Under the pieces are notes generated by a model that saw only the letters and a list, made by a program, of their open reading frames with translations, was not told the DNA's origin and did no database searches. DNA of 64,000 bases from contig NZ_CP045309.1 in the NCBI RefSeq assembly GCF_009671205.1, positions 2,852,001 to 2,916,000 of the forward strand, given 5' to 3'. The DNA is from Micromonospora terminaliae. Lineage in GTDB: Bacteria; Actinomycetota; Actinomycetes; Mycobacteriales; Micromonosporaceae. Shown here one piece after another: positions 12,020 through 21,370 of the stretch (its first letter is position 1; each line of letters begins with the position of its first letter). Position numbers and translations under genes: made by a program.

Positions 12020-12574
12020 ATGAGACTGAGGAGAACACTGCTGGCGCTGGTCGTCGTGCTCGGCGGGCTGGTCGCCGGCACGAGCGGCGCGACCGCGGCG
12101 GCGCCGTACTGCGGGATCACCTGGGGCAGCACGGCCAGGACGGCCGGCAGCCTCAGCAGCGGTCCGCTGATCGAGGTCCGCACCGGGCGGCACGACTGCT
12201 ACGACCGGGTGGTCTTCGAGTTCGCCGGCCCGGCCGACGGCTACTCCGTCGCCTACGGCGAGACGTACACCGAGGGGCAGGGGCTTGCGCTCAGCCCGTA
12301 CACCGCCGGTGGCGCGCTGCTGTCGGTGTCGCTGCGGGCGCCCGCGTACGACGACCAGCACGTCGGCACGCTGCCCTACCGCGCCGGTGAGCACGCCGCG
12401 ACGGTACTGGGCTACCGCACGCTGCGGGACGTCGTCTTCGGCGGCAGCTTCGAGGGCTACACGACGTTCGCCGTGGGTGTCCGCGCCCGGCTGCCGTTCC
12501 GGGTCTTCGTGCTCAGCGGCCCCGGCACGCACAGCCGCATCGTGATCGACGTGGCCCACCAGTGGCAGGCGTGA
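12020..12574 (+). CDS. Secreted AMIN-like domain protein
   Basis: 184 residues. A classical signal peptide (MRLRRTLLALVVVLGGLVAG) ends near the Ala-rich site at residue 28. The mature protein matches the actinobacterial AMIN-like family: CGITWGS, then LIEVRTGRHDCYDRVVFEF, and the last strands FRVFVLSGPGTHSRIVIDVAH. Such domains are thought to bind cell-wall polymers; no enzyme motif is seen. It has a good upstream site (GGGAGGCCACC). It stands just before the two-component genes but with its own ribosome-binding site and 92 bases of spacing. Confidence 0.8.
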   Translation: MRLRRTLLALVVVLGGLVAGTSGATAAAPYCGITWGSTARTAGSLSSGPLIEVRTGRHDCYDRVVFEFAGPADGYSVAYGETYTEGQGLALSPYTAGGALLSVSLRAPAYDDQHVGTLPYRAGEHAATVLGYRTLRDVVFGGSFEGYTTFAVGVRARLPFRVFVLSGPGTHSRIVIDVAHQWQA

Positions 12575-12666
12575 CCTTCCCCCAGGTGAGAGGGGCCGAC
12601 CGGCCCCTCATCACCGTCCGTTGCGGCCACGCCTCGCGGCGTCGCACCGGACTACCCTGGGTGGTC

Positions 12667-13347
12667 ATGGAGGGCCGCGTGCTGGTCGTCGAGGACGACG
12701 CCTCCATCCGGGAGGTGACGGCCCTCGGCCTGCGCCGGGCCGGGTTCCGGGTGGCCACCGCCGCCGACGGCCCGGCCGCCCTCGCCGCGTGGCGGGCCGG
12801 CCCGGTCGACCTCATCGTGCTCGACGTGATGCTTCCCCGCCTCGACGGATTCGAGGTGTGCCGGGAGATCCGGCGCACCAGTCAGGTGCCGATTCTCATG
12901 CTCACCGCCCGCACCGACACCATCGACGTGGTGGTCGGCCTGGAGTGCGGGGCCGACGACTACCTCCGCAAGCCGTTCGACCTGCCGGAGCTGGTCGCCC
13001 GGGTCCGCGCCGTGCTCCGCCGGACCGTCGCGCCGGCCCCCGAGACCACCGTGACGGCCGGGCCGCTGGAGATCGACCCGGCCCGCTTCGTGGCCCGCCG
13101 GGACGGCCGCGAGCTGACCCTGACGGCCACCGAGTTCCGGCTGCTGCTGGAGCTGGCCCGGCGACCCGGCCAGGTGTTCACCCGCGAGCTGCTGCTCGAC
13201 CGGGTCTGGGGACACAGCTATCTCGGCGACTCCCGGCTGGTCGACGTGGCCGTGCAGCGCCTGCGCGCCAAGGTCGAGGACGACCCCGGGGCGCCGACCC
13301 TGATCCGGACGGTCCGCGGGGCCGGCTACAAGCTGTCGACGGGGTGA
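12667..13347 (+). CDS. OmpR/PhoB-family response regulator
   Basis: 226 residues. The receiver domain has the acidic pair EDD (residues 9-11), phospho-acceptor Asp in LIVLDVMLPRLDG (about residue 53), switch Thr in LMLTART and the Lys of LRKPFD (about residue 104). The C-terminal winged helix carries LTATEFRLLLELARRPGQVFTRELLLDRVWG and ends GAGYKL. It begins a three-gene set with a histidine kinase 7 bases downstream and an overlapping GerMN lipoprotein gene. Confidence 0.92.
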   Translation: MEGRVLVVEDDASIREVTALGLRRAGFRVATAADGPAALAAWRAGPVDLIVLDVMLPRLDGFEVCREIRRTSQVPILMLTARTDTIDVVVGLECGADDYLRKPFDLPELVARVRAVLRRTVAPAPETTVTAGPLEIDPARFVARRDGRELTLTATEFRLLLELARRPGQVFTRELLLDRVWGHSYLGDSRLVDVAVQRLRAKVEDDPGAPTLIRTVRGAGYKLSTG

Positions 13348-13354
13348 GCGGGCC

Positions 13355-14743
13355 ATGGCGGCCGGCAGGGTCGTGCCCGGGCGGTTGCGGCGCCGGCTCG
13401 TCGTCGCGTTCGTCCTCGTGGCCGGCATGTCCGCGGGGGCGCTGGCCGCCGGCTCCTACCTCATGCTGCGCCAGGCCCGGTTCGACGGCTCGCTGCAACG
13501 CGCCGACGCCGACGCCCGCTACCAGCTCGTGGTCGCCGCGCAGTTCCTGCCGCTGACCGACACCCGCCGGGCCGACCTGCTGGCCAGCTTCGAGGAGTCC
13601 GGCCGCCACGTGGTGCTGGTCGCCGGGGAGACCGAGGCGTCCAACCCCCGGTACGCCCCCACCCCCGACCCCGACCTGCGGGCTGCCGTCGCCGCCGGGC
13701 AGCTCGGCTTCCAGCGCACCGCCGGCCGGCCCCACCTGCTCGTCGTCGGCGGCCGGATCCCCGGCTCCACGGCCGAGCTGTACGTGGTGACCGTCGAGGA
13801 CGACCTCGTCGACGCCCTCGACCAGCTCCGCACCGCCTCGATCGTCGGCTGGGCGGTGGTCGTGCTGCTCGCCGCCGGCGTGGGCAACGCCCTCGCCCGC
13901 CGCACCCTGGAACCCGTCGGCCGGGCCAGCCGGGCCGCGCGGGCCGTCGCCGAGGGGCTGCTGCACACCCGGCTGCCGGTGCGCGGCCGGGACGAGTTCA
14001 GCGCCTGGGCCACCTCCTTCAACGAGATGGCCGAGGCGCTGGAGAACCAGATCGAGGCGCTGTCCCGGGCGCAGGCGCGGGAGCGCCGGTTCACCGCCGA
14101 CGTGGCGCACGAGCTGCGTACCCCGGTCACCGCCCTGGTGGCGGCGGCCTCGCTGCTGGCCGACCAGCTCGACGCCCTCCCGGCCGACGCCCGCCGCGCC
14201 GCCGAACTGCTCGTGGCCGATGTGGTCCGGCTGCGCCGGCTGGTCGAGGAACTCATGGAGATCTCCCGCCTGGACGCCGGCCGGGAGGTGCTCGCCACCC
14301 GCCCGGTGGACGTCGGCGCGCTGCTGCGCCGGATCGTCGCCGGCCACCCCGACTCGCGGGCCCGCGTGGACGGCGACGCGCCGCCCGTGGTGACCGACCC
14401 GCGCCGGCTCGAACGGATCCTCAGCAACCTGGTGGCCAACGGGATCGAACACGGCGGCGGCGACCTGCGCGCCGAGATCCGGCACACCGGCGCCGAACTC
14501 GTCGTCTCGGTCGCCGACCGCGGGCCGGGCATTCCCGCCGAGCACCTGGCCCACATCTTCGACCGGTTCTACAAGGCCGATCCGGCCCGCACCGGGCCCG
14601 GCAGCGGGCTCGGCCTGGCCATCGCCCGGGAGAACGCCCGGCTGCTCGGCGGCCGGCTCGACGTGGCTAGCGAGGTCGGCCACGGCACCCGCTTCCGCCT
14701 CACCCTCCCGCTCGACACCGGGGACACCTCATGCGACGCCTGA
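13355..14743 (+). CDS. Membrane sensor histidine kinase
   Basis: 462 residues. Two TM helices (about 15-38 and 161-185) bracket an extracytoplasmic sensor. A HAMP region follows (NALARRTLEPVGRASRAARAV), then the HisKA H-box FTADVAHELRTPVTAL (His near 252), N-box RILSNLVANGIEHG, G1 VADRGPGIP, F-box IFDRFYKAD and G2 GSGLGLAIA. All parts needed for autophosphorylation are intact. The stop overlaps the next gene by 13 bases. The triad of regulator, kinase and GerMN lipoprotein resembles the mtrA-mtrB-lpqB arrangement, although these proteins are smaller and are probably a paralogous system. Confidence 0.92.
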   Translation: MAAGRVVPGRLRRRLVVAFVLVAGMSAGALAAGSYLMLRQARFDGSLQRADADARYQLVVAAQFLPLTDTRRADLLASFEESGRHVVLVAGETEASNPRYAPTPDPDLRAAVAAGQLGFQRTAGRPHLLVVGGRIPGSTAELYVVTVEDDLVDALDQLRTASIVGWAVVVLLAAGVGNALARRTLEPVGRASRAARAVAEGLLHTRLPVRGRDEFSAWATSFNEMAEALENQIEALSRAQARERRFTADVAHELRTPVTALVAAASLLADQLDALPADARRAAELLVADVVRLRRLVEELMEISRLDAGREVLATRPVDVGALLRRIVAGHPDSRARVDGDAPPVVTDPRRLERILSNLVANGIEHGGGDLRAEIRHTGAELVVSVADRGPGIPAEHLAHIFDRFYKADPARTGPGSGLGLAIARENARLLGGRLDVASEVGHGTRFRLTLPLDTGDTSCDA

Positions 14744-15624
14744 TCCCACCGCTCGCCGCGCTGCTGCTGCTCACCGCCGGCTGCGCCCCGCCCCGCACCG
14801 GCACCCTCGGGCCCGCCCCGGCCGGCCCGTCGCCGACCACCACCGCCGCCGCGCCGGACGGCACGCCCCCGCCGATCCCGCCCGCGACGGGCGTCCCCGG
14901 CACACCCGCCACGACGGGTACGGCGACCACCCCCGCCGCGACCGGAGCGGACGGGACGCTGACCGTGCAGCTCTGGTTCGCCCGGGGCGGCAGACTCGTG
15001 CCCACCCGGCGTACGCTGCCGGCCACCGTGGCCACCTCCCGGCTGGCGCTCACCGAACTGGCCGCCGGCCCGTCCCCGGCCGAGAGCGCCACCGGCCTCA
15101 CCACCCTGGTGCCCCCCGGCACGCAGGTGACCCGAATCGCCGGCGGGGTGGCGACCCTGGTCCCGCCGGCCGGGTTCGACGCCGACGGGGCGACGGACGC
15201 CCGGCTGCGCCGCGCCCAGGTGGTCTGGACGCTCACCCAGTTCCCCACCGTCCGGCGGGTGGCCTTCGCGCCGACCGACGCGGCGACCGGGCGGGACGAC
15301 TACGCCGACCTGCTGCCCCCCATCGTGGTGACCGCCCCGGCGATCGGCGACCGGGTCGCCAGCCCGGTGACCGTCAGCGGCACCGCCGACGTGTTCGAGG
15401 CGACGGTGAGCGTCCGGGTGCTGGACGCGGCGGGCCGCGAGATCGGCACCGGGTTCACGACGGCCTCCTGCGGCTCCGGCTGCCGCGGCGCCTACCGGCT
15501 GGACGTCCGCTACCGGCGCGCGGCGGCCGGGCGGGGCACGGTCGAGGTGTACGAGGTGTCGGCGCGCGACGGCTCCCGGGTCAACGTGGTGCGCGTACCG
15601 GTCGAGCTGACCGCCGCCCGGTGA
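14731..15624 (+). CDS. GerMN and Gmad2-type lipoprotein, LpqB-like
   Basis: 297 residues. The signal ends in the lipobox LTAGC (Cys 18), followed by a Pro/Thr-rich linker to about residue 70. A GerMN domain (LTVQLWFARGGRLVPTRRTLP through FPTVRRVAFA) covers about 72-180. A C-terminal Ig-like Gmad2 domain (IVVTAPAIGDRVASPVTVSGTADVFEA) covers about 193-295. GerMN is also found in LpqB, the lipoprotein that modulates the MtrB kinase, so a similar accessory role for the upstream kinase is likely. Translation is probably coupled, since its start lies inside the kinase gene. Confidence 0.85.
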   Translation: MRRLIPPLAALLLLTAGCAPPRTGTLGPAPAGPSPTTTAAAPDGTPPPIPPATGVPGTPATTGTATTPAATGADGTLTVQLWFARGGRLVPTRRTLPATVATSRLALTELAAGPSPAESATGLTTLVPPGTQVTRIAGGVATLVPPAGFDADGATDARLRRAQVVWTLTQFPTVRRVAFAPTDAATGRDDYADLLPPIVVTAPAIGDRVASPVTVSGTADVFEATVSVRVLDAAGREIGTGFTTASCGSGCRGAYRLDVRYRRAAAGRGTVEVYEVSARDGSRVNVVRVPVELTAAR

Positions 15625-15663
15625 CGCGACCCCACAGCGGACGGCACAGTCGGTCGGAACCGA

Positions 15664-15692
15664 TTGACTTTCGATAGGTTCCGCGCGATAGT
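15664..15692 (+). promoter_or_regulatory. Sigma-70-type promoter for the DUF2975 operon
   Basis: TTGACT at 15664-15669 and GATAGT at 15687-15692 with a 17-base spacer. The ATG of the DUF2975 gene begins seven bases after the -10 box, so the mRNA is probably leaderless. Confidence 0.65.
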
Positions 15693-15698
15693 CGATGC

Positions 15699-16178
15699 AT
15701 GTTCACAGCTCAACGGGCGGTGGCTCCGCTCAAAGCCTTCCTCGTGCTGCTGTTCGGGATCCTGGTCCTGTTCCAGGTCATGTCGCTGCCCGGGCAGTTC
15801 GCGCACATGGCCAGGGAGAACCCGGACATGGCCTACCTGAGGTGGCCGGCGACCGCCGTGACGGTGTTCTGGGTGCTCTGCATCCAGGTGGTGATCGCGT
15901 GCACCTGGAAGCTGCTCACCCTGGTCAAGAACGACCGCATCTTCAGCGAGGCGTCCCTGGCCTGGGTGGATGCGATCGTGTGGGCCATCGCCGCCGCGTG
16001 GGCGGTACTCGTGGGCGTCTTCCTCTACGTCGGCTTCAACGCGGACGACCCGGGCCTGCCGCTCCTGCTGTTCCTGCTGGTGACCGGGGTGACCGTGCTG
16101 GGGCTGCTCATGGTCGTGATGCGGGAGCTGCTGCGGCAGGCCACCACGCTCCGGACCGACATGGAAGCGGTGATCTGA
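15699..16178 (+). CDS. DUF2975 four-helix membrane protein
   Basis: 159 residues with four predicted TM helices (about 10-30, 50-72, 86-108, 116-140). The cytosolic segment LLTLVKNDRIFSEASLAWVD between helices 2 and 3 is the family signature. In many actinobacteria and firmicutes DUF2975 genes are followed by a small Cro/CI-like regulator of the YozG type, which is also the case here (1-base overlap of stop and start, TGATG). Biochemical role unknown. Confidence 0.88.
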   Translation: MFTAQRAVAPLKAFLVLLFGILVLFQVMSLPGQFAHMARENPDMAYLRWPATAVTVFWVLCIQVVIACTWKLLTLVKNDRIFSEASLAWVDAIVWAIAAAWAVLVGVFLYVGFNADDPGLPLLLFLLVTGVTVLGLLMVVMRELLRQATTLRTDMEAVI

Positions 16179-16399
16179 TGCCCATCGTCGTCCGCATCGA
16201 CGTCGAGCTGGCCCGACGCAAGATGAGCGTCGGCGAGTTCGCCGAGCGGGTCGGCCTCACCCCGGCCAACGTCGCGGTGCTGAAGAACGGCCGGGCCAAG
16301 GCCGTCCGCTTCAGCACCCTCGAAGCCATGTGCCGGGTGCTGGACTGCCAGCCCGGCGACCTGCTCGAATGGGTCGAGGATGAGGGAGAAGGCCGATGA
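16178..16399 (+). CDS. Cro/CI-family HTH regulator, YozG-like
   Basis: 73 residues, essentially one HTH_3/HTH_26 domain: LARRKMSVGEFAERVGLTPANVAVLKNGRAKAVRFSTLEAMCRVLDCQPGDLLEW. It starts within the stop of the DUF2975 gene and ends overlapping the next small gene (ATGA), so all three are translated together. Likely regulates its own operon; no ligand-binding domain is present, so the membrane partner may supply the signal. Confidence 0.9.
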   Translation: MPIVVRIDVELARRKMSVGEFAERVGLTPANVAVLKNGRAKAVRFSTLEAMCRVLDCQPGDLLEWVEDEGEGR

Positions 16400-16560
16400 G
16401 GTACGTGCTCGCCGTCGTAGCTCTCCTGGCCGTCGCGCTCGGCGTCGCCGGCCTCGTCTACGGGGAGGCCGACGACTCGCCCGGCCTCCAGCTCCTGGCC
16501 GGCCTGCTCGTCATCGGCGCCGTGGCGATCGGCGTCCGCATCGCCCGGCGCAGCCGGTAG
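16396..16560 (+). CDS. Small membrane protein, third gene of the DUF2975 operon
   Basis: 54 residues. Two hydrophobic segments (residues about 3-21 and 31-47) are joined by the acidic loop YGEADDSPG, and the C-terminus is basic (RIARRSR). Its ATG overlaps the stop of the HTH gene (ATGA at 16396-16399). Two-TM proteins of this size commonly close DUF2975/YozG operons; the function is not known. Confidence 0.8.
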   Translation: MRYVLAVVALLAVALGVAGLVYGEADDSPGLQLLAGLLVIGAVAIGVRIARRSR

Positions 16561-16566
16561 GTGTCG

Positions 16567-16639
16567 CTGCGAGCTGAGGATTCGAACCTCAATTCCCCGA
16601 TCCAGAGTCGGATGTGCTGCCTGGTTGCACCAGCTCGCA
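16567..16639 (-). tRNA. tRNA-Gln (anticodon CTG)
   Basis: 73 bases. Acceptor TGCGAGC/GCTCGCA, D stem GTGC/GCAC, anticodon stem TCCGA/TCGGG with loop CTCTGGA (U33 present), T stem TGAGG/CCTCA with loop TTCGAAT, discriminator G; CCA not encoded. The first pair U1-A72 is typical of Gln tRNAs. It lies downstream of rtcB on the same strand, separated from it by a terminator-like hairpin. Confidence 0.92.
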
Positions 16640-16644
16640 TGGGC

Positions 16645-16678
16645 GACCGGCGCCCCTCCCCCTCCGGGGGCGCCGGTC
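16645..16678 (-). terminator. Hairpin after rtcB
   Basis: 12-base perfect arms at 16645-16656 and 16667-16678 lie four bases after the rtcB stop. They may end the rtcB transcript before tRNA-Gln or act as an RNase-processed spacer. Confidence 0.65.
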
Positions 16679-16681
16679 GGT

Positions 16682-17878
16682 TCAACCCTTCACACAGACG
16701 ACCTGCTTGAGGTGGGCGACCACCTCGACCAGGTCCTCCTGCTGAGCCATCACCTGGGTGATGTCCTTGTACGCGCCGGGAATCTCGTCGACCACCCCGG
16801 CGTCCTTGCGGCACTCCACGCCCGCCGTCTGCGCCGCCAGGTCGGCGGTGCTGTACGTCCGCTTCGCCTGCCCCCGCGACATCCGCCGCCCGGCCCCGTG
16901 CGACGCCGAGCAGTACGCGTCGAGGTTGCCCTTGCCGCGCACGACGTACGACCCGGTGCCCATCGACCCCGGGATGATGCCCAGGTCGCCCCGGCCGGCC
17001 CGGATGGCGCCCTTGCGGGTCACCAGCACCTCGACCCCGTCGTAGCTCTCCTCCGCCACGTAGTTGTGGTGGCAGGAGATCGGCTCGTCGTAGCCGACCT
17101 GCGGGAACTCGTCCCGCACCACCCCGCAGAGCAGGGCGAGCATGACGGCCCGGTTGCGGCGCGCGTACTCCTGCGCCCACCACAGGTCCCGGCGGTAGGC
17201 GTCCATCTCCGGGGTGCCGGCGAGGAACACCGCGAGGTCCCGGTCGGGCAGGTCCACGTTGTGCGGCAGCCCGCGGGCCACCGCCATGTGCCGCTCGGCG
17301 AGTTCCTTGCCGATGTTGCGGGAGCCCGAGTGCAGCATCAGCCAGACCCGGCCGTCGTCCGGGCCGCCCTGCTCCAGGCAGACCTCGATGAAGTGGTTCC
17401 CGCCGCCGAGGGTGCCCAGCTGGCGCTGGGCCCGGGTCTCCAGCTGCGCCACCTTCCGGTCGAGGGTGCCGAAGCGCCAGAAGTCGTCCCAGCCGCCCTG
17501 CTCCAGCCCACGGATCCGGCGCGGGTCGACCGCGTCGGCGCGCATGGCGAAGCCGACCGGGATGGCCGCCTCGATGGCGCTCCGCAGCGGGCCGAGGTCG
17601 TCGGGCAGGTCGGCCGCGGTGAGCGAGGTGCGCACCGCGGACATGCCGCAGCCGATGTCGACGCCGACCGCGGCCGGCGAGACGGCCTGCCGCATGGCGA
17701 TGACCGAGCCCACCGTGGCGCCCTTGCCGAAGTGCACGTCCGGCATGACGGCGACGCCGTGCACCCAGGGCAGCGTGCCGATGTTGCGCAGCTGCCGGGC
17801 CGCCTGCGCCTCGATCGTGTAGGGGTCGGTCCAGACCCGGACCGGCGCCCGGGTACCGGCCAGCGGGGTGAAACCCAT
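16682..17878 (-). CDS. rtcB: RtcB-family RNA ligase
   Basis: 398 residues. RtcB joins 2',3'-cyclic-phosphate or 3'-phosphate ends to 5'-OH ends using GTP and Mn, and in bacteria repairs RNAs cut by ribonucleases. All signature segments are present: GVDIGCGM (metal Cys, near residue 78), LGGGNHFIEV (about 165), MLHSGSRNIG (about 190), SCHHNYVAEE (about 270), IPGSMGTGSYVVRGKG and ASHGAGRRMSRGQAK, the last containing the His that is guanylylated in the family. No archease or rtcA is nearby. The gene sits inside a run of tRNA genes on the same strand, which suggests tRNAs are its substrate. Confidence 0.95.
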   Translation of the reverse strand: MGFTPLAGTRAPVRVWTDPYTIEAQAARQLRNIGTLPWVHGVAVMPDVHFGKGATVGSVIAMRQAVSPAAVGVDIGCGMSAVRTSLTAADLPDDLGPLRSAIEAAIPVGFAMRADAVDPRRIRGLEQGGWDDFWRFGTLDRKVAQLETRAQRQLGTLGGGNHFIEVCLEQGGPDDGRVWLMLHSGSRNIGKELAERHMAVARGLPHNVDLPDRDLAVFLAGTPEMDAYRRDLWWAQEYARRNRAVMLALLCGVVRDEFPQVGYDEPISCHHNYVAEESYDGVEVLVTRKGAIRAGRGDLGIIPGSMGTGSYVVRGKGNLDAYCSASHGAGRRMSRGQAKRTYSTADLAAQTAGVECRKDAGVVDEIPGAYKDITQVMAQQEDLVEVVAHLKQVVCVKG

Positions 17879-17908
17879 CGTCGTCTCCTCGTTCAGGGGT
17901 GTTGTCCG

Positions 17909-17982
17909 AGCGGTTGGCCGGATTCGAACCGGCGATCTTCACCATGGCGAGGTGACGCGCTGCCTGACTGCGCTACAACCGC
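17909..17982 (-). tRNA. tRNA-Gly-like (anticodon GCC), with C33
   Basis: 74 bases. Acceptor GCGGTTG/CAACCGC, D stem GCGC/GCGC, anticodon stem TCACC/GGTGA, T stem GCCGG/CCGGC, discriminator T. The seven-base anticodon loop reads TCGCCAT, which puts C instead of the near-universal U at position 33 before anticodon GCC. The stems are otherwise perfect, so it is not obviously decayed. It is 30 bases upstream of rtcB. Confidence 0.85.
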
Positions 17983-18009
17983 GTGGTGGTCCCGGGGCGG
18001 GACCAGGCG

Positions 18010-18082
18010 TAGGCCGTACGGGACTCGAACCCGTAGCCTCCCGGGTGAGAACCGGGTGAGCTGCCAATTGCTCCAACGGCCC
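18010..18082 (-). tRNA. tRNA-Glu (anticodon CTC)
   Basis: 73 bases. Acceptor GGGCCGT/ACGGCCT with an initial G-U pair, D stem GAGC/GCTC, anticodon stem CCCGG/CCGGG with loop TTCTCAC, T stem ACGGG/CCCGT. All consensus positions are normal. 27 bases separate it from tRNA-Gly. Confidence 0.92.
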
Positions 18083-18110
18083 GCGGGACGGCGGCTGCCG
18101 TCCGCGTGTG

Positions 18111-18183
18111 TCCGGGACCGCGGAATCGAACCGCGTGTCTCTCGCGCCCAAGGCGAGCGGGTCAGCCAGCTCCCTCGTCCCGG
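18111..18183 (-). tRNA. tRNA-Pro (anticodon TGG), unusual D-arm
   Basis: 73 bases. Acceptor CCGGGAC/GTCCCGG, anticodon stem CTCGC/GCGAG with loop CTTGGGC, T stem CGCGG/CCGCG. Position 8 is G instead of the conserved U, and the D stem has only three good pairs (GGG/CCC) with an A-A mismatch below. The rest is consensus. A strong hairpin immediately precedes it. Confidence 0.85.
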
Positions 18184-18186
18184 TTG

Positions 18187-18214
18187 CCCGGCCGGCGCGC
18201 GAGCGCCGGCCGGG
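18187..18214 (-). terminator. Hairpin between tRNA-Trp and tRNA-Pro
   Basis: 11-base perfect arms (18187-18197 and 18204-18214), six-base loop, ending three bases before the tRNA-Pro 5' end. No T-tract, so it may be a terminator after tRNA-Trp or a processing element in the precursor. Confidence 0.45.
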
Positions 18215-18287
18215 GTCGTGCTCATGCCGTCCACTGTGGAGTTGAGAAGAAGCGACGTCGCCGGCCAGCGGTCGGGACAGGGTGAGG

Positions 18288-18359
18288 CAGGGGCGACAGG
18301 ACTCGAACCTGCAACCGTCGGGTTTGGAATCCGGTGCTCTTCCGTTGAGCTACGCCCCT
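18288..18359 (-). tRNA. tRNA-Trp-like (anticodon CCA), weak anticodon stem
   Basis: 72 bases. Acceptor AGGGGCG/CGCCCCT, D stem GCTC/GAGC, T stem GCAGG/CCTGT, loop TTCCAAA with anticodon CCA. The anticodon stem CCGGA/CCCGA has mismatches at both ends (27-43 C-A and 31-39 A-C), leaving three pairs. It is the first tRNA of the array, so it may be an accessory copy rather than the only tRNA-Trp in the genome. Confidence 0.85.
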
Positions 18360-18375
18360 CGGACCCGGTGACGAG

Positions 18376-18412
18376 AAAAGCCGCCCGGTCCCTGGTCTCG
18401 GGGCGGGCGGCT
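18376..18412 (-). terminator. T-tailed terminator or attenuator upstream of tRNA-Trp
   Basis: On the minus strand a 9-bp stem (18404-18412 with 18379-18387) is followed by TTTTC, the best intrinsic terminator of the region. It lies between the small ORF ending at 18435 and the tRNA-Trp 5' end at 18359, so any transcript from the upstream promoter must pass it to reach the tRNAs. Confidence 0.7.
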
Positions 18413-18434
18413 GCGCGTGTGTGTCGCGCCGGCG

Positions 18435-18557
18435 CTAGTCGCGCCACCACCCCGGTTGCCACTGCTGCCGTCGGCAGCGACCCTGGCCCGCTTCGCGCGG
18501 CAGGGCACCGCCGCGCGGCGCGGGCCGCTCGGCTCGGGTGCGGTTCTGCTGCGACAC
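18435..18557 (-). CDS. Small basic ORF ahead of the tRNA array, possible leader peptide
   Basis: 40 residues, starting MSQQNRTRAERPAPRG and ending QQWQPGWWRD; about a quarter of the residues are Arg. The GTG start at 18557 has an AGGAG site seven bases upstream. The last codons include CAG-CAG-TGG-CAA-CCG-GGG-TGG-TGG, i.e. Gln, Trp, Pro and Gly, four of the five amino acids served by the tRNAs downstream. The stop lies 22 bases before a terminator stem. It may be a true small protein or an attenuation leader; no homology is recognised. Confidence 0.55.
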   Translation of the reverse strand: MSQQNRTRAERPAPRGGALPREAGQGRCRRQQWQPGWWRD

Positions 18558-18600
18558 GGTGTGCTCCTGGGTGGTGGCTCGGGTTGACCTTGGCCCGTTC

Positions 18601-18630
18601 ACGGTACGGGCGGGTCCGGGAGCCCCGCAA
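18601..18630 (-). promoter_or_regulatory. Promoter for the small ORF and tRNA array
   Basis: Read on the minus strand: TTGCGG (18630-18625), 18-base spacer, TACCGT (18606-18601). Predicted start of transcription is near 18594, about 35 bases ahead of the GTG of the small ORF. Confidence 0.45.
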
Positions 18631-18710
18631 CGTATTTCGCGGGGACGGTTCGGCCGGCGCCGAACGGTGGCGCCGATAGCCTCGCGGCGGGCGGACGAAA
18701 GGAGCACGGG

Positions 18711-19322
18711 ATGGACTGGCGGCGCCGGGTGGCCGAGCGGTTCCGGGAGGTCAACGGGGAGCACCCCATGACGGCGGCGGACGACGCGTACGTCAGCGGG
18801 CAGTTCGTGACGCTCGACGCGCTCTGCGCGGCGGCCGGGCGGGACCCGGACGGCGTACGCCGGTTGATGCTGGACCGGCGGCTGCCGTTGCCGGGCTATC
18901 TGCGCTCGGACGGCGCGGAGATGGTCCCGGCGGACCTGTTCGCGCTGGCGGAGCGGGCCGGCGGGGTGGACGCGCTGCCCGGGTGGTTCGTCTCCCACTG
19001 GGCCGACCCGGCGCGCGGCGCGGAGGAGTGGGACGCCTACCTGAGCGGCCGGTACGTCTGCCTGCGCTCGGTGACGCCCGAGTCGATCCGGCGCAAGGAC
19101 GATCTGACCGCCGCGATCGGTGCGGCGCCGGCCGAGCCGGACGCCGGGTCGGCGACCTGGCTCGACCGGCTGCACGCGCTGGTCGACGAGTTGGACGCGC
19201 TGGAGCCGGCGTTCACCGGCTACGACCGGCTCCGGTTCGGCGGGCCGACCTCCCGTGACACCTGCGTGGACGGGGTGCGTGCCCGGTATCCACGACCGGT
19301 CAGCGCGCCGACCGTCCGGTGA
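18711..19322 (+). CDS. DUF6058 family protein
   Basis: 203 residues, soluble. The sequence follows the DUF6058 pattern: DDAYVSGQFVTLDALCAAAGR, LPGYLRSDGAEMVPADLFAL, SGRYVCLRSVTPESIRRK and, near the end, YDRLRFGGPTSRDTCVDGVRARY. The first part may be a degenerate HTH. Function unknown; the family name mentions natural products only by association. A strong GAAAGGAG site lies six bases before the ATG. Its 3' end overlaps the convergent GTPase gene by 23 bases. Confidence 0.78.
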   Translation: MDWRRRVAERFREVNGEHPMTAADDAYVSGQFVTLDALCAAAGRDPDGVRRLMLDRRLPLPGYLRSDGAEMVPADLFALAERAGGVDALPGWFVSHWADPARGAEEWDAYLSGRYVCLRSVTPESIRRKDDLTAAIGAAPAEPDAGSATWLDRLHALVDELDALEPAFTGYDRLRFGGPTSRDTCVDGVRARYPRPVSAPTVR

Positions 19323-21306
19323 CCCGGCGGGCGACGGCCAGCAGGTACTCCCGGCGGTGCAGCGGGTCGTGGTCCCAGCGGGGCCGGCTCGGGGCCGGTC
19401 CGCGTACCGGGCGGTAGTGGTCGAACTCGGCCTCCAGGACGCCCTCGCCACGGGTCAGCCCCGGCAGCCGCTGGTCCAGCGCGTGCACCCGCCCGGCGGG
19501 GACCTCCCCCTCGATGACGTAGGCGGCGCCACGCAGGGTGCTGCCGCGGGGTGTCGCGCCGAGCCCGGCGAGCGCGGGCAGCACCGTGCCGAACAGATCC
19601 GCGGGGAGGTCGAGCCGGAACCGGTGCACCGGCTCGTGCACCCGGGTGCCCGCGCGGGTGAGGGCGGTCATCAGCACCAGCGGGGTGAGGTTCCGGAAGT
19701 CGCCGGCCGTGCTGGACATGCTCTTGTCGAACACGCCGTGGGCGTGGCTCTGCCGGGCCCAGTAGCCGCCGTGGGTGAGGGTGACCACGCAGTCGATGAC
19801 GGCCCAGCCGTGCAGCCCCTGCCGCAGGGTCTCCCGGACCGTCTCCTCGATCGCCTTGAGGAAGGCCGGCGGCATCGAGCCGAGTTCGATGCCGAGCCGG
19901 AACTCGACGCCGCCACCCACCGGCCCGGGCTCGACGCGCAGGCCGACGGTGCCGAGGAACGGGTTGGGCTCCCGGCCGATCCACTCGACGGCCGCGCCGG
20001 CGCTGGTGACCCGCTCCACGCAGACGGTGGTGGTCTCCCGGAAGGTGACCGGAACGCCGTAGTCGTCGGCGAGGGTGGCCTCGATGACCTCCTTCTGCAC
20101 CTCGCCGTAGAGGGACACGGCGAGTTCCTGGCGCCGGTCGTCCTGGCGCAGGTTGATCAGCGGGTCCTGCTCGGCGAGCTGGGTGAGCGCCGCGTGCAGG
20201 GCCGGGCGGTCGGCCGGGCGTACCGGCTCGACGACGGTCTCCAGCGTGGGCGGGGCGAAGTGGCGCCGGGCGGCCGGGCGCTCGGGCGGCGCGCCGAGCA
20301 CGTCGCCGACGCGGACGCCGGCCAGGCCGTGCAGCCGGACGATCCGGCCGGCACCCGCCGCGTCGGCGGGCGTCGCGTCGCCGCCGTCGAAGACACCGAG
20401 GGCGGTGACCCGGGCCTCCTGGCCGTCGCCGTGCCGGATCCGGTCGCGGACCCGCACGGTGCCGGCGAAGATCCGGGCGTACGCCACCTTCTCCCCGGCC
20501 GGGCCGCGCTCGACCTTGAAGACGGCGCCGGAGAGCGGGGCGTGGACGTCCCCGGCGGTGGCGGGGAGCAGCCCGGTGACCGCGTCGATCAGGTCGGCCA
20601 CCCCGGCCCCGGTGATGGCGGAGCCGGCGAGCACCGGGTGCACCCGGGCGCGCACGGCCTGCGCGGCGAGCGCCGTCCGGAGCCGGTGCGGGGTGACCGC
20701 CCGTTCGTCGGCCACGTACGCGGCCAGCAGCGCGTCGTCGTGCGCGGAGAGCAGGTCGACGAGGCGGGCGTGGTGGCCGGGGTCGCCGGGCGGGTGCGGG
20801 ACCCACGTCGCGCCCGGGGTGCCGGCGGCGTCGACCCGGCCGAGGGCGACGACGTCGGGGGTGAGCCGGTCGGCGAGCTGGCGCAGCACCCGCTCCGGAT
20901 CGGCGCCGGCCCGGTCGACCTTGTTCACGAAGAACAGGGTGGGGATGCCGAGGCGGCGCAGGGTGCGGGCCAGCACCCGGGTCTGGGCCTGGACGCCCTC
21001 GACGGCGGACACCACGAGCACCGCCCCGTCGAGCACGCCGAGCACGCGTTCCACCTCGGCGATGAAGTCGGGGTGGCCGGGCGTGTCGATGAGGTTGACG
21101 GTGGTCCCGGCCACGGCGAAGGAGACGACGGCGGACCGGATGGTGATGCCCCGCTGCCGCTCCAGCGCCAGCGTGTCGGTGCGGGTGTTGCCGGCGTCGA
21201 CGCTGCCGGGCTCGTCGATGACCCCGGCGCTGTGCAGCAGCCGTTCGGTCAGGCTCGTCTTACCGGCGTCGACATGGGCGAGGATGCCGAGATTGAGGGT
21301 TTTCAC
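19300..21306 (-). CDS. Tet(M)/OtrA-type ribosomal protection GTPase
   Basis: 668 residues, an EF-G-like GTPase of the tetracycline ribosomal protection group that removes drug from the 30S A site. G1 AHVDAGKTS (10-18), switch I with RGITI, G3 DTPGH (about 73), G4 NKVD (about 128) are intact. Domain 4 and the C-terminal region (SHAHGVFDKSMSSTAGDFRN, RFRLDLPADLFGTVLPALAG) match the RPP type rather than EF-G. Chromosomal copies in actinomycetes are common and can be self-protection or housekeeping relatives, so actual resistance is not proven. GTG start; a short ORF with a strong ribosome-binding site overlaps its beginning. Confidence 0.9.
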   Translation of the reverse strand: MKTLNLGILAHVDAGKTSLTERLLHSAGVIDEPGSVDAGNTRTDTLALERQRGITIRSAVVSFAVAGTTVNLIDTPGHPDFIAEVERVLGVLDGAVLVVSAVEGVQAQTRVLARTLRRLGIPTLFFVNKVDRAGADPERVLRQLADRLTPDVVALGRVDAAGTPGATWVPHPPGDPGHHARLVDLLSAHDDALLAAYVADERAVTPHRLRTALAAQAVRARVHPVLAGSAITGAGVADLIDAVTGLLPATAGDVHAPLSGAVFKVERGPAGEKVAYARIFAGTVRVRDRIRHGDGQEARVTALGVFDGGDATPADAAGAGRIVRLHGLAGVRVGDVLGAPPERPAARRHFAPPTLETVVEPVRPADRPALHAALTQLAEQDPLINLRQDDRRQELAVSLYGEVQKEVIEATLADDYGVPVTFRETTTVCVERVTSAGAAVEWIGREPNPFLGTVGLRVEPGPVGGGVEFRLGIELGSMPPAFLKAIEETVRETLRQGLHGWAVIDCVVTLTHGGYWARQSHAHGVFDKSMSSTAGDFRNLTPLVLMTALTRAGTRVHEPVHRFRLDLPADLFGTVLPALAGLGATPRGSTLRGAAYVIEGEVPAGRVHALDQRLPGLTRGEGVLEAEFDHYRPVRGPAPSRPRWDHDPLHRREYLLAVARRVTGRSAR

Positions 21307-21370
21307 GCAGCGTCATGTCCTTGAGGTCGGCGGTGATTCGCTTCTGCGGGGACATGCACGCGGCTCGCAT
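21260..21370 (-). CDS. Candidate leader peptide of the ribosomal protection gene
   Basis: 36 codons in a different frame, beginning MRAACMSPQKRITADL and ending CRRR. The ATG at 21370 follows AAGGAGGAG, the strongest ribosome-binding site in this area, whereas the GTG of the GTPase gene (21306) has only a weak AAGGA. The ORF runs 47 bases into the resistance gene. Drug-inducible resistance genes often have such leaders, but no stalling motif is recognised here. Confidence 0.4.
   Translation of the reverse strand: MRAACMSPQKRITADLKDMTLRENPQSRHPRPCRRR

Follow-up and report, generated by a model that had tools for sequence, protein, structure and literature searches.

The subject of this analysis is an RNA ligase gene, rtcB, and the tRNA genes around it in the genome of Micromonospora terminaliae. 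The whole stretch of DNA analysed, called the window below, is 64 kb in length. Five tRNA genes flank rtcB on the minus strand in the order tRNA-Trp, tRNA-Pro, tRNA-Glu, tRNA-Gly, rtcB, tRNA-Gln, as assigned by ARAGORN and Pfam, which agrees with an original prediction made from the sequence of the window. The gaps within the array are 26 to 102 bases, close to the 27 to 104 bases of that prediction without being identical to them. At the gathering threshold, Rfam recovers four of the five array tRNAs, tRNA-Pro being the missing one. On the same strand, upstream of tRNA-Trp, positions 18375-18639 are occupied by a predicted promoter, a leader open reading frame (ORF) and a terminator, all unmentioned in the original prediction; a simple scan for promoters and terminators detected neither the promoter nor the terminator of this region. 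The features are as follows, with the basis of each assignment in brackets.

18601..18639, minus strand: predicted WhiB7/WblC-type promoter (pattern match and conservation)
18435..18557, minus strand: leader ORF with GTG start, 40 codons, ending QQWQPGWWRD (conserved start, frame and stop position)
18399..18454, minus strand: antiterminator (fold and pair counts)
18375..18412, minus strand: intrinsic terminator (fold and conserved pairing)
18286..18359, minus strand: tRNA-Trp(CCA), array copy (ARAGORN; Rfam)
18110..18183, minus strand: tRNA-Pro(TGG), array copy (ARAGORN; not among the Rfam matches at gathering threshold)
18009..18082, minus strand: tRNA-Glu(CTC), array copy (ARAGORN; Rfam)
17908..17982, minus strand: tRNA-Gly(GCC), array copy, C at loop position 33 (ARAGORN; Rfam)
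16682..17878, minus strand: rtcB, 398-residue RNA ligase (Pfam RtcB; alignment with solved RtcB structures)
16566..16639, minus strand: tRNA-Gln(CTG), array copy (ARAGORN; Rfam)
19300..21306, minus strand: Otr(A)-like tetracycline ribosomal protection protein, a neighbouring gene (NCBIfam Otr(A) model)

Leader region and promoter

The terminator consists of the stem AGCCGCCCG/CGGGCGGCT followed by a T run, and its fold has an energy of -24.3 kcal/mol (z -3.1). In the antiterminator, CGGGGUGG at the end of the leader ORF (18454-18447) pairs with CCGCCCCG (18406-18399). The two structures are mutually exclusive, because both use the same CCGCCC arm. The region contains the parts of an attenuator, namely a leader ORF, an intrinsic terminator and an exclusive antiterminator that uses the end of the ORF.

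These parts were followed through 90 rtcB loci of the genus, 30 from a search (including that of the window) and 60 picked from 158 matching genomes, most of them assemblies in few contigs. With a strict script, the terminator was called in 69 loci, the leader in 63 and both in 59. Nine of the ten terminator loci without a script-called leader have an in-frame leader on inspection, so that 68 of the 69 loci with a terminator have one (the exception is L178). Among these 68 loci, 36 have tRNAs and 32 do not. The leader is 36-43 codons long (two were called at 55), and its stop lies 17-28 nucleotides before the terminator in a set of 65 segments, of which six are from named loci, some of these six being genomes already present in the set. 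In a structure alignment of 41 of the 59 distinct leader segments, the terminator helix is 91.3% paired with a covariation score above all of 500 shuffles, and two pairs are changed on both sides, including one that goes from G-C to A-U in six sequences. For the antiterminator and its two inner hairpins, pairing in that alignment is 90.2%, and six pairs are changed on both sides, a number reached by 2 of 500 shuffles. Where a leader TGG becomes CGG, Trp is replaced by Arg and the pairing is kept, so the RNA rather than the peptide seems to be conserved there.

Genes for tRNAs were found by ARAGORN beside rtcB in 37 of the 90 genus loci (33 upstream and 25 downstream) and in none of the other 53. 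These tRNA counts are lower bounds, since in 30 loci the sequence ends less than 2 kb beyond rtcB and unusual tRNAs can escape ARAGORN. The terminator is ahead of the first tRNA in all 33 loci with upstream tRNAs. The content varies from none to ten tRNAs, with the largest array (L138) reading Trp-Pro-Glu-Gly-rtcB-Arg-Gln-Leu-Leu-Arg-Cys. Conservation among relatives had been proposed as a check on the original prediction. Every tRNA beside rtcB in the genus loci is on the rtcB strand, with none on the opposite one, and the recurrence of the arrangement in the genus is more than chance.

The predicted promoter of the window is composed of an AT-rich box (CGAAAT), a -35 element TTGCGG (18630-18625), 18 nucleotides of spacer and a -10 element TACCGT (18606-18601), which is the make-up of WhiB7/WblC promoters (AT-rich box, -35 TKGMNN, spacer 16-19, -10 TANNNT). 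The box can be read as CGAAAT at 3 nucleotides from the -35 element or as GAAATA at 2 nucleotides. There is no other match of the WhiB7-type pattern in the window. The same elements (AT-rich box, 3 nucleotides, TTG(C), 17-18 nucleotides, TANNNT) are located upstream of 67 of the 68 genus leaders, and the plus strand of those 68 loci (410,286 nucleotides) contains 67 matches, all before leaders. The gene whiB7 was found in all 41 genus genomes searched for it; in 30 of these 41 matched loci the upstream region was inspected, and all 30 contain the same pattern exactly once within 700 nucleotides upstream of whiB7. The leader sequence of the rtcB unit is different from that of whiB7 in the same genome.

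Array tRNAs, ligase and neighbouring genes

Typing of the Rfam tRNA stretches of the genome (54 entries, 52 distinct genes, as two entries of L117 repeat two of L089) gave further copies of Trp(CCA), Pro(TGG), Glu(CTC), Gly(GCC) and Gln(CTG) outside the array. The array tRNAs are not the sole genomic copies, an outcome that favours the original prediction, which had taken them for a private set. Identity between array and housekeeping copies with the same anticodon ranges from 49/82 (Glu) to 61/75 (Trp); on sequence comparison, the array is a second, divergent tRNA set. Across the 10 loci in which the full upstream set of four tRNAs is present, mean identity is 95-99% for the tRNA genes, 71-85% for the spacers and 82% for rtcB third positions.

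Acceptor ends were counted in 100 Micromonospora and Salinispora loci, in which three genomes are present twice, at bases that we take to be tRNA identity elements. They mostly fit the amino acid of the anticodon: A1-U72 and G73 in 15/15 tRNA-Trp, C1-G72 and A73 in 15/15 tRNA-Pro, A73 in 30/31 and G1-U72 in 27/31 tRNA-Glu(CTC), U73 in 24/24 tRNA-Gly(GCC), G73 in 18/20 tRNA-Gln and U73 in 8/8 tRNA-Cys. Among the departures from this fit are G73 in 3 of 11 Arg(CCG) copies and in one copy each of Gly(CCC) and Gly(TCC). The stem-mispair counts of ARAGORN are uninformative in this respect, because it brackets valid pairs only. The flanks of the anticodon loop differ from those of the housekeeping copies, at position 38 in nearly all Glu and Pro copies, and at least 19 of the 24 genus copies of array tRNA-Gly(GCC) have C33 instead of the near-universal U. 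The array tRNAs look functional, and the array appears to stand behind one switch together with rtcB.

Array tRNAs with Leu anticodons (L001, L010, L038, L138 and others) are 74-77 nucleotides long, too short for a long variable arm; four of the five housekeeping Leu tRNAs are 84-87 nucleotides, and the CAA one was read as 77. Stress mistranslation by these array tRNAs is conceivable. Outside the array, a degenerate second tRNA-Gly (34.8 bits) adjoins a tRNA-Val copy at G000:C1:2119113-2119298 (L089). Common descent of the Micromonospora, Kribbella and Rhizocola array tRNAs was considered and set aside, as their identities to housekeeping tRNAs are about as high.

The RtcB protein of the window is full-length (Pfam RtcB, E=6.1e-124). 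In an alignment judged by eye, the positions of its Asp/Cys, His and final Lys residues, presumably the ligands of metal and guanosine monophosphate, match those of the solved structures 1uc2 and 4dwq, and the active site is intact-looking. The best eight named rtcB loci are all from Micromonospora, with 88-94% identity. The genome measures 6.74 Mb, and the contig that carries the window 6.7 Mb. A second, longer RtcB is encoded about 255 kb away (G000:C1:2611996-2613285, L081), with a stronger Pfam score of 563.5 bits.

Beyond the genus, 72 named rtcB loci (L009-L080, including two from Salinispora and one from Rhizocola) and 30 loci picked from 55 genomes of other Micromonosporaceae with a match were compared. 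One Pseudonocardiaceae locus (L021) contains the promoter, a 15-codon ORF (judged by eye), a terminator, tRNA-Gln and rtcB, with a 10-bp antiterminator that is different from the genus one and is formed by the ORF end; this locus repeats the architecture in an independent lineage. In Gordonia (L036), GAAAAC and TGGACT are found about 105 nucleotides before rtcB. Another Micromonosporaceae genus (L266 and L295) has the promoter (box GAAATAC), leader ORF, terminator, Trp, Pro, Gln, rtcB and 19 more tRNAs; the 22 tRNAs around rtcB at G189:C1:8877000-8892000 (L295) cover 14 amino acids. Four of the 30 loci have tRNAs beside rtcB, and an additional non-genus locus (L296) has the promoter pattern and no tRNA. 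Genes for HNH endonucleases lie within the arrays of Kribbella (L038) and Rhizocola (L010), with a phage-type integrase near the Kribbella array, and no WhiB7-type promoter was found at the Kribbella loci. The one phage rtcB neighbourhood viewed, that of phage Honk, has no annotated tRNA within 3 kb. A TROVE (Ro60-like) protein with a vWA domain is encoded beside rtcB in Rhizocola (L010, 7280-9112).

Among the eight neighbouring proteins of the window given to Pfam (12562-21306), there is neither RtcA nor RtcR, for which no genome-wide search was made, nor a toxin; the absence of rtcA and toxin genes nearby, claimed in the original prediction, holds for these eight. The Otr(A)-like neighbour, also absent from the original prediction, matches the NCBIfam Otr(A) model with E=1.1e-219 and 731 bits, below the curated cut-off of 900. 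Of 41 genus genomes searched, 12 have a close Otr(A)-like gene (identity of 68% or more), which in 8 of the 12 lies within 1.5 kb upstream of rtcB; in a set of 60 loci, 10 have such a gene reaching into the 2.5 kb before rtcB. In the window, a short ORF at 21303-21370 (22 codons, judged by eye) shares bases with the GTG start of the Otr(A)-like gene, an arrangement that suggests translational coupling of the two.

Proposed function and alternatives

Taken together, the promoter architecture, the conserved leader ORF, the alternative RNA structures, the extra conserved tRNAs and the RtcB active site suggest that the locus is probably a translation-stress-induced unit, in which a WhiB7-type activator and an attenuator with a leader ORF control an RNA ligase and replacement tRNAs. 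Without stress, the promoter would be weak, because WhiB7 would be needed, and a ribosome translating the 40-codon leader to its stop would cover the ORF end. The terminator would then form, and the tRNAs and rtcB would not be transcribed. When antibiotics or a shortage of charged or intact tRNA block the ribosomes, WhiB7 would rise and activate the promoter. The ORF end, no longer covered, would pair with the terminator's 5' arm, and transcription would continue into the tRNA genes and rtcB. The cell may gain RtcB, able to seal RNAs with cyclic-phosphate ends if such is the damage, and extra tRNAs, presumably chargeable, which may be protected from cleavage by their altered anticodon loops. 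Going by the control elements, general translation stress of the WhiB7 type is a likelier trigger than a single anticodon nuclease.

Several observations weigh against this unit or its proposed control. The two double-changed pairs of the terminator are reached by 281 of 500 shuffles, and a terminator slid by -1 has 18 double-changed cells compared with 11, with pairing of 51.2%. The leader codons have no synonymous bias (375 synonymous and 1405 nonsynonymous changes in 185 pairs). The other two leader frames are mostly open too (53/59 and 57/59), so openness proves nothing; what counts as evidence is that start, frame and stop position are constant. An exact GAAAWY, the published WblC box, is found in 1 of 67 leaders; the box of whiB7 itself in the genus reads GTAAAT, TAAATT and similar. 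The window box is 1 nucleotide nearer to the -35 element than that of a relative (L120). By script, 17 of the 90 genus loci have neither leader nor terminator. The promoter pattern is patchy outside the genus: it is found within 1.8 kb upstream of rtcB in 2 of the 72 named loci, with four matches in the remainder of these loci (695,105 nucleotides), and within 3 kb upstream in 12 of the 30 other Micromonosporaceae loci, with none in the 11 most divergent of them. A WhiB7-type promoter was also considered for the Otr(A)-like neighbour and rejected, as the pattern is missing in 12 of 12 loci.

The original prediction combined two ideas, a functional unit of ligase and extra tRNAs and a defined set of toxin targets. 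The first gains from the additional tRNA copies, their conservation above that of the spacers and the single leader switch, and the supply of replacement copies is plausible. The second is not supported. That the unit counters one tRNA-cutting toxin, with RtcB repairing or the copies replacing exactly the listed isoacceptors, would agree with extra copies with changed anticodon loops and with the chemistry of RtcB, which suits RNA with cyclic-phosphate ends. But the tRNA set varies by species, from none (53 of the 90 genus loci) to ten in the genus and to 22 in another genus, the switch and rtcB occur without tRNAs in 32 of 68 loci, and the neighbouring proteins given to Pfam include no toxin; we regard this version as improbable. 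Somewhat less improbable, though still unlikely, is a stress-induced rtcB core with tRNAs that landed behind its switch from phages or mobile elements and drift there as passengers in the course of being lost. Such passengers would account for the 37 of 53 tRNA-less genus loci that retain leader or terminator, for the 79% identity of the array tRNA-Trp to a mycobacteriophage tRNA-Trp, and for the HNH genes in the Kribbella and Rhizocola arrays and the integrase gene near the Kribbella one; they would not be expected to be more conserved than spacers and rtcB third positions, to retain most acceptor-end bases, or to exist in a 22-tRNA version.

The window leader ends in QQWQPGWW, which fits the Trp, Pro, Gly and Gln tRNAs of the array and raises the idea of attenuation as in the trp operon, in which the Gln, Trp, Pro and Gly codons sense charged tRNAs that the array refills. 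This idea has very little probability, since the end motif becomes GWRR, PGWRD, GRRRD and others in relatives, the TGG to CGG change alters the amino acid and preserves the RNA pairing, the motif has no Glu codons, and the L021 leader has no Trp. Hardly credible is a role of the array tRNAs as Y-RNA-like scaffolds of an rsr-Y RNA-rtcB system. The TROVE gene beside rtcB in Rhizocola would suit it, but no TROVE protein matches in the genome of the window, Rfam shows tRNA only and no Y RNA family in the window and seven related loci, and the array has several different anticodons with matching acceptor ends.

An extension of the stress-induced unit is a tentative possibility, which we think rather doubtful: a shadow translation kit in Actinobacteria, made of an RNA ligase and a cleavage-tolerant second tRNA set, switched by WhiB7 and a leader ORF. 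Such a kit would span from a few isoacceptors to 22 tRNAs and would restart translation after damage or sequestration of the housekeeping tRNAs.

Relation to known systems

No description of rtcB with a tRNA array behind such a switch, and no paper on Micromonospora with rtcB, was found in the open-access literature searched; subscription papers and supplements were mostly outside this coverage, so the absence of a description is not proof. The WhiB7-type antibiotic response, RNA repair by RtcB and spare tRNAs were not found described together, and what is new is the combination. The unit may help translation to continue under antibiotic stress. It gives redundant bacterial tRNA arrays a role that can be tested, and it suggests RNA damage as part of the effect of translation inhibitors. 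The nearest precedents are the Anabaena trn operon, the WblC regulon with its six tRNAs and E. coli Rtc; published systems are compared below.

The gene wblC is autoregulated and has an attenuator based on a leader ORF, and six tRNAs are under WblC control in S. coelicolor (PMC7157823); whiB7 has a leader ORF, a terminator and an antiterminator (PMC10727445; PMC11550727). The unit described here resembles the WhiB7/WblC regulon in its AT-rich box 3 nucleotides upstream of a TTG-type -35 element and its TANNNT, and resembles whiB7 and wblC themselves in having a leader ORF, a terminator and an antiterminator that overlaps ORF and terminator (PMC7157823, PMC10727445). Unlike them, its target is rtcB with divergent extra tRNAs, and its leader sequence and box letters (compared with GAAAWY) differ.

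In Anabaena, the repressor TrcR of the trn operon also controls rtcB, so that trn and rtcB are in one translation-stress regulon (PMC10272220). As in the trn operon, extra tRNAs beyond the housekeeping copies form one same-strand unit here. The trn operon has 26 tRNAs on a megaplasmid, a separate rtcB gene and a cyanobacterial ribbon-helix-helix (RHH) repressor (PMC10272220), whereas ligase and tRNAs here form one chromosomal unit with a WhiB7-type promoter and attenuator. In the RtcR-rtcBA and rsr-Y RNA-rtcBA operons, damage to the translation machinery induces RtcB (PMC7790460, PMC12606134), and similar induction may occur here; unlike those operons, there is no RtcA, RtcR, Ro60 or Y RNA among the parts tested, tRNA genes are in the operon, and the control is different. 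The tRNA array units of mycobacteria, phages and plasmids share the redundant divergent actinobacterial tRNAs and the associated HNH genes (PMC5966550). Those units have at least 20 tRNAs, and the word ligase does not occur in that paper (PMC5966550), whereas the present array has five tRNAs, rtcB and a switch. Extra tRNAs with altered anticodon loops are also known from phages, where they evade anticodon nucleases (PMC10264068); unlike them, the array tRNAs, for which cleavage resistance is putative, are chromosomal and are combined with rtcB and a translation-stress switch.

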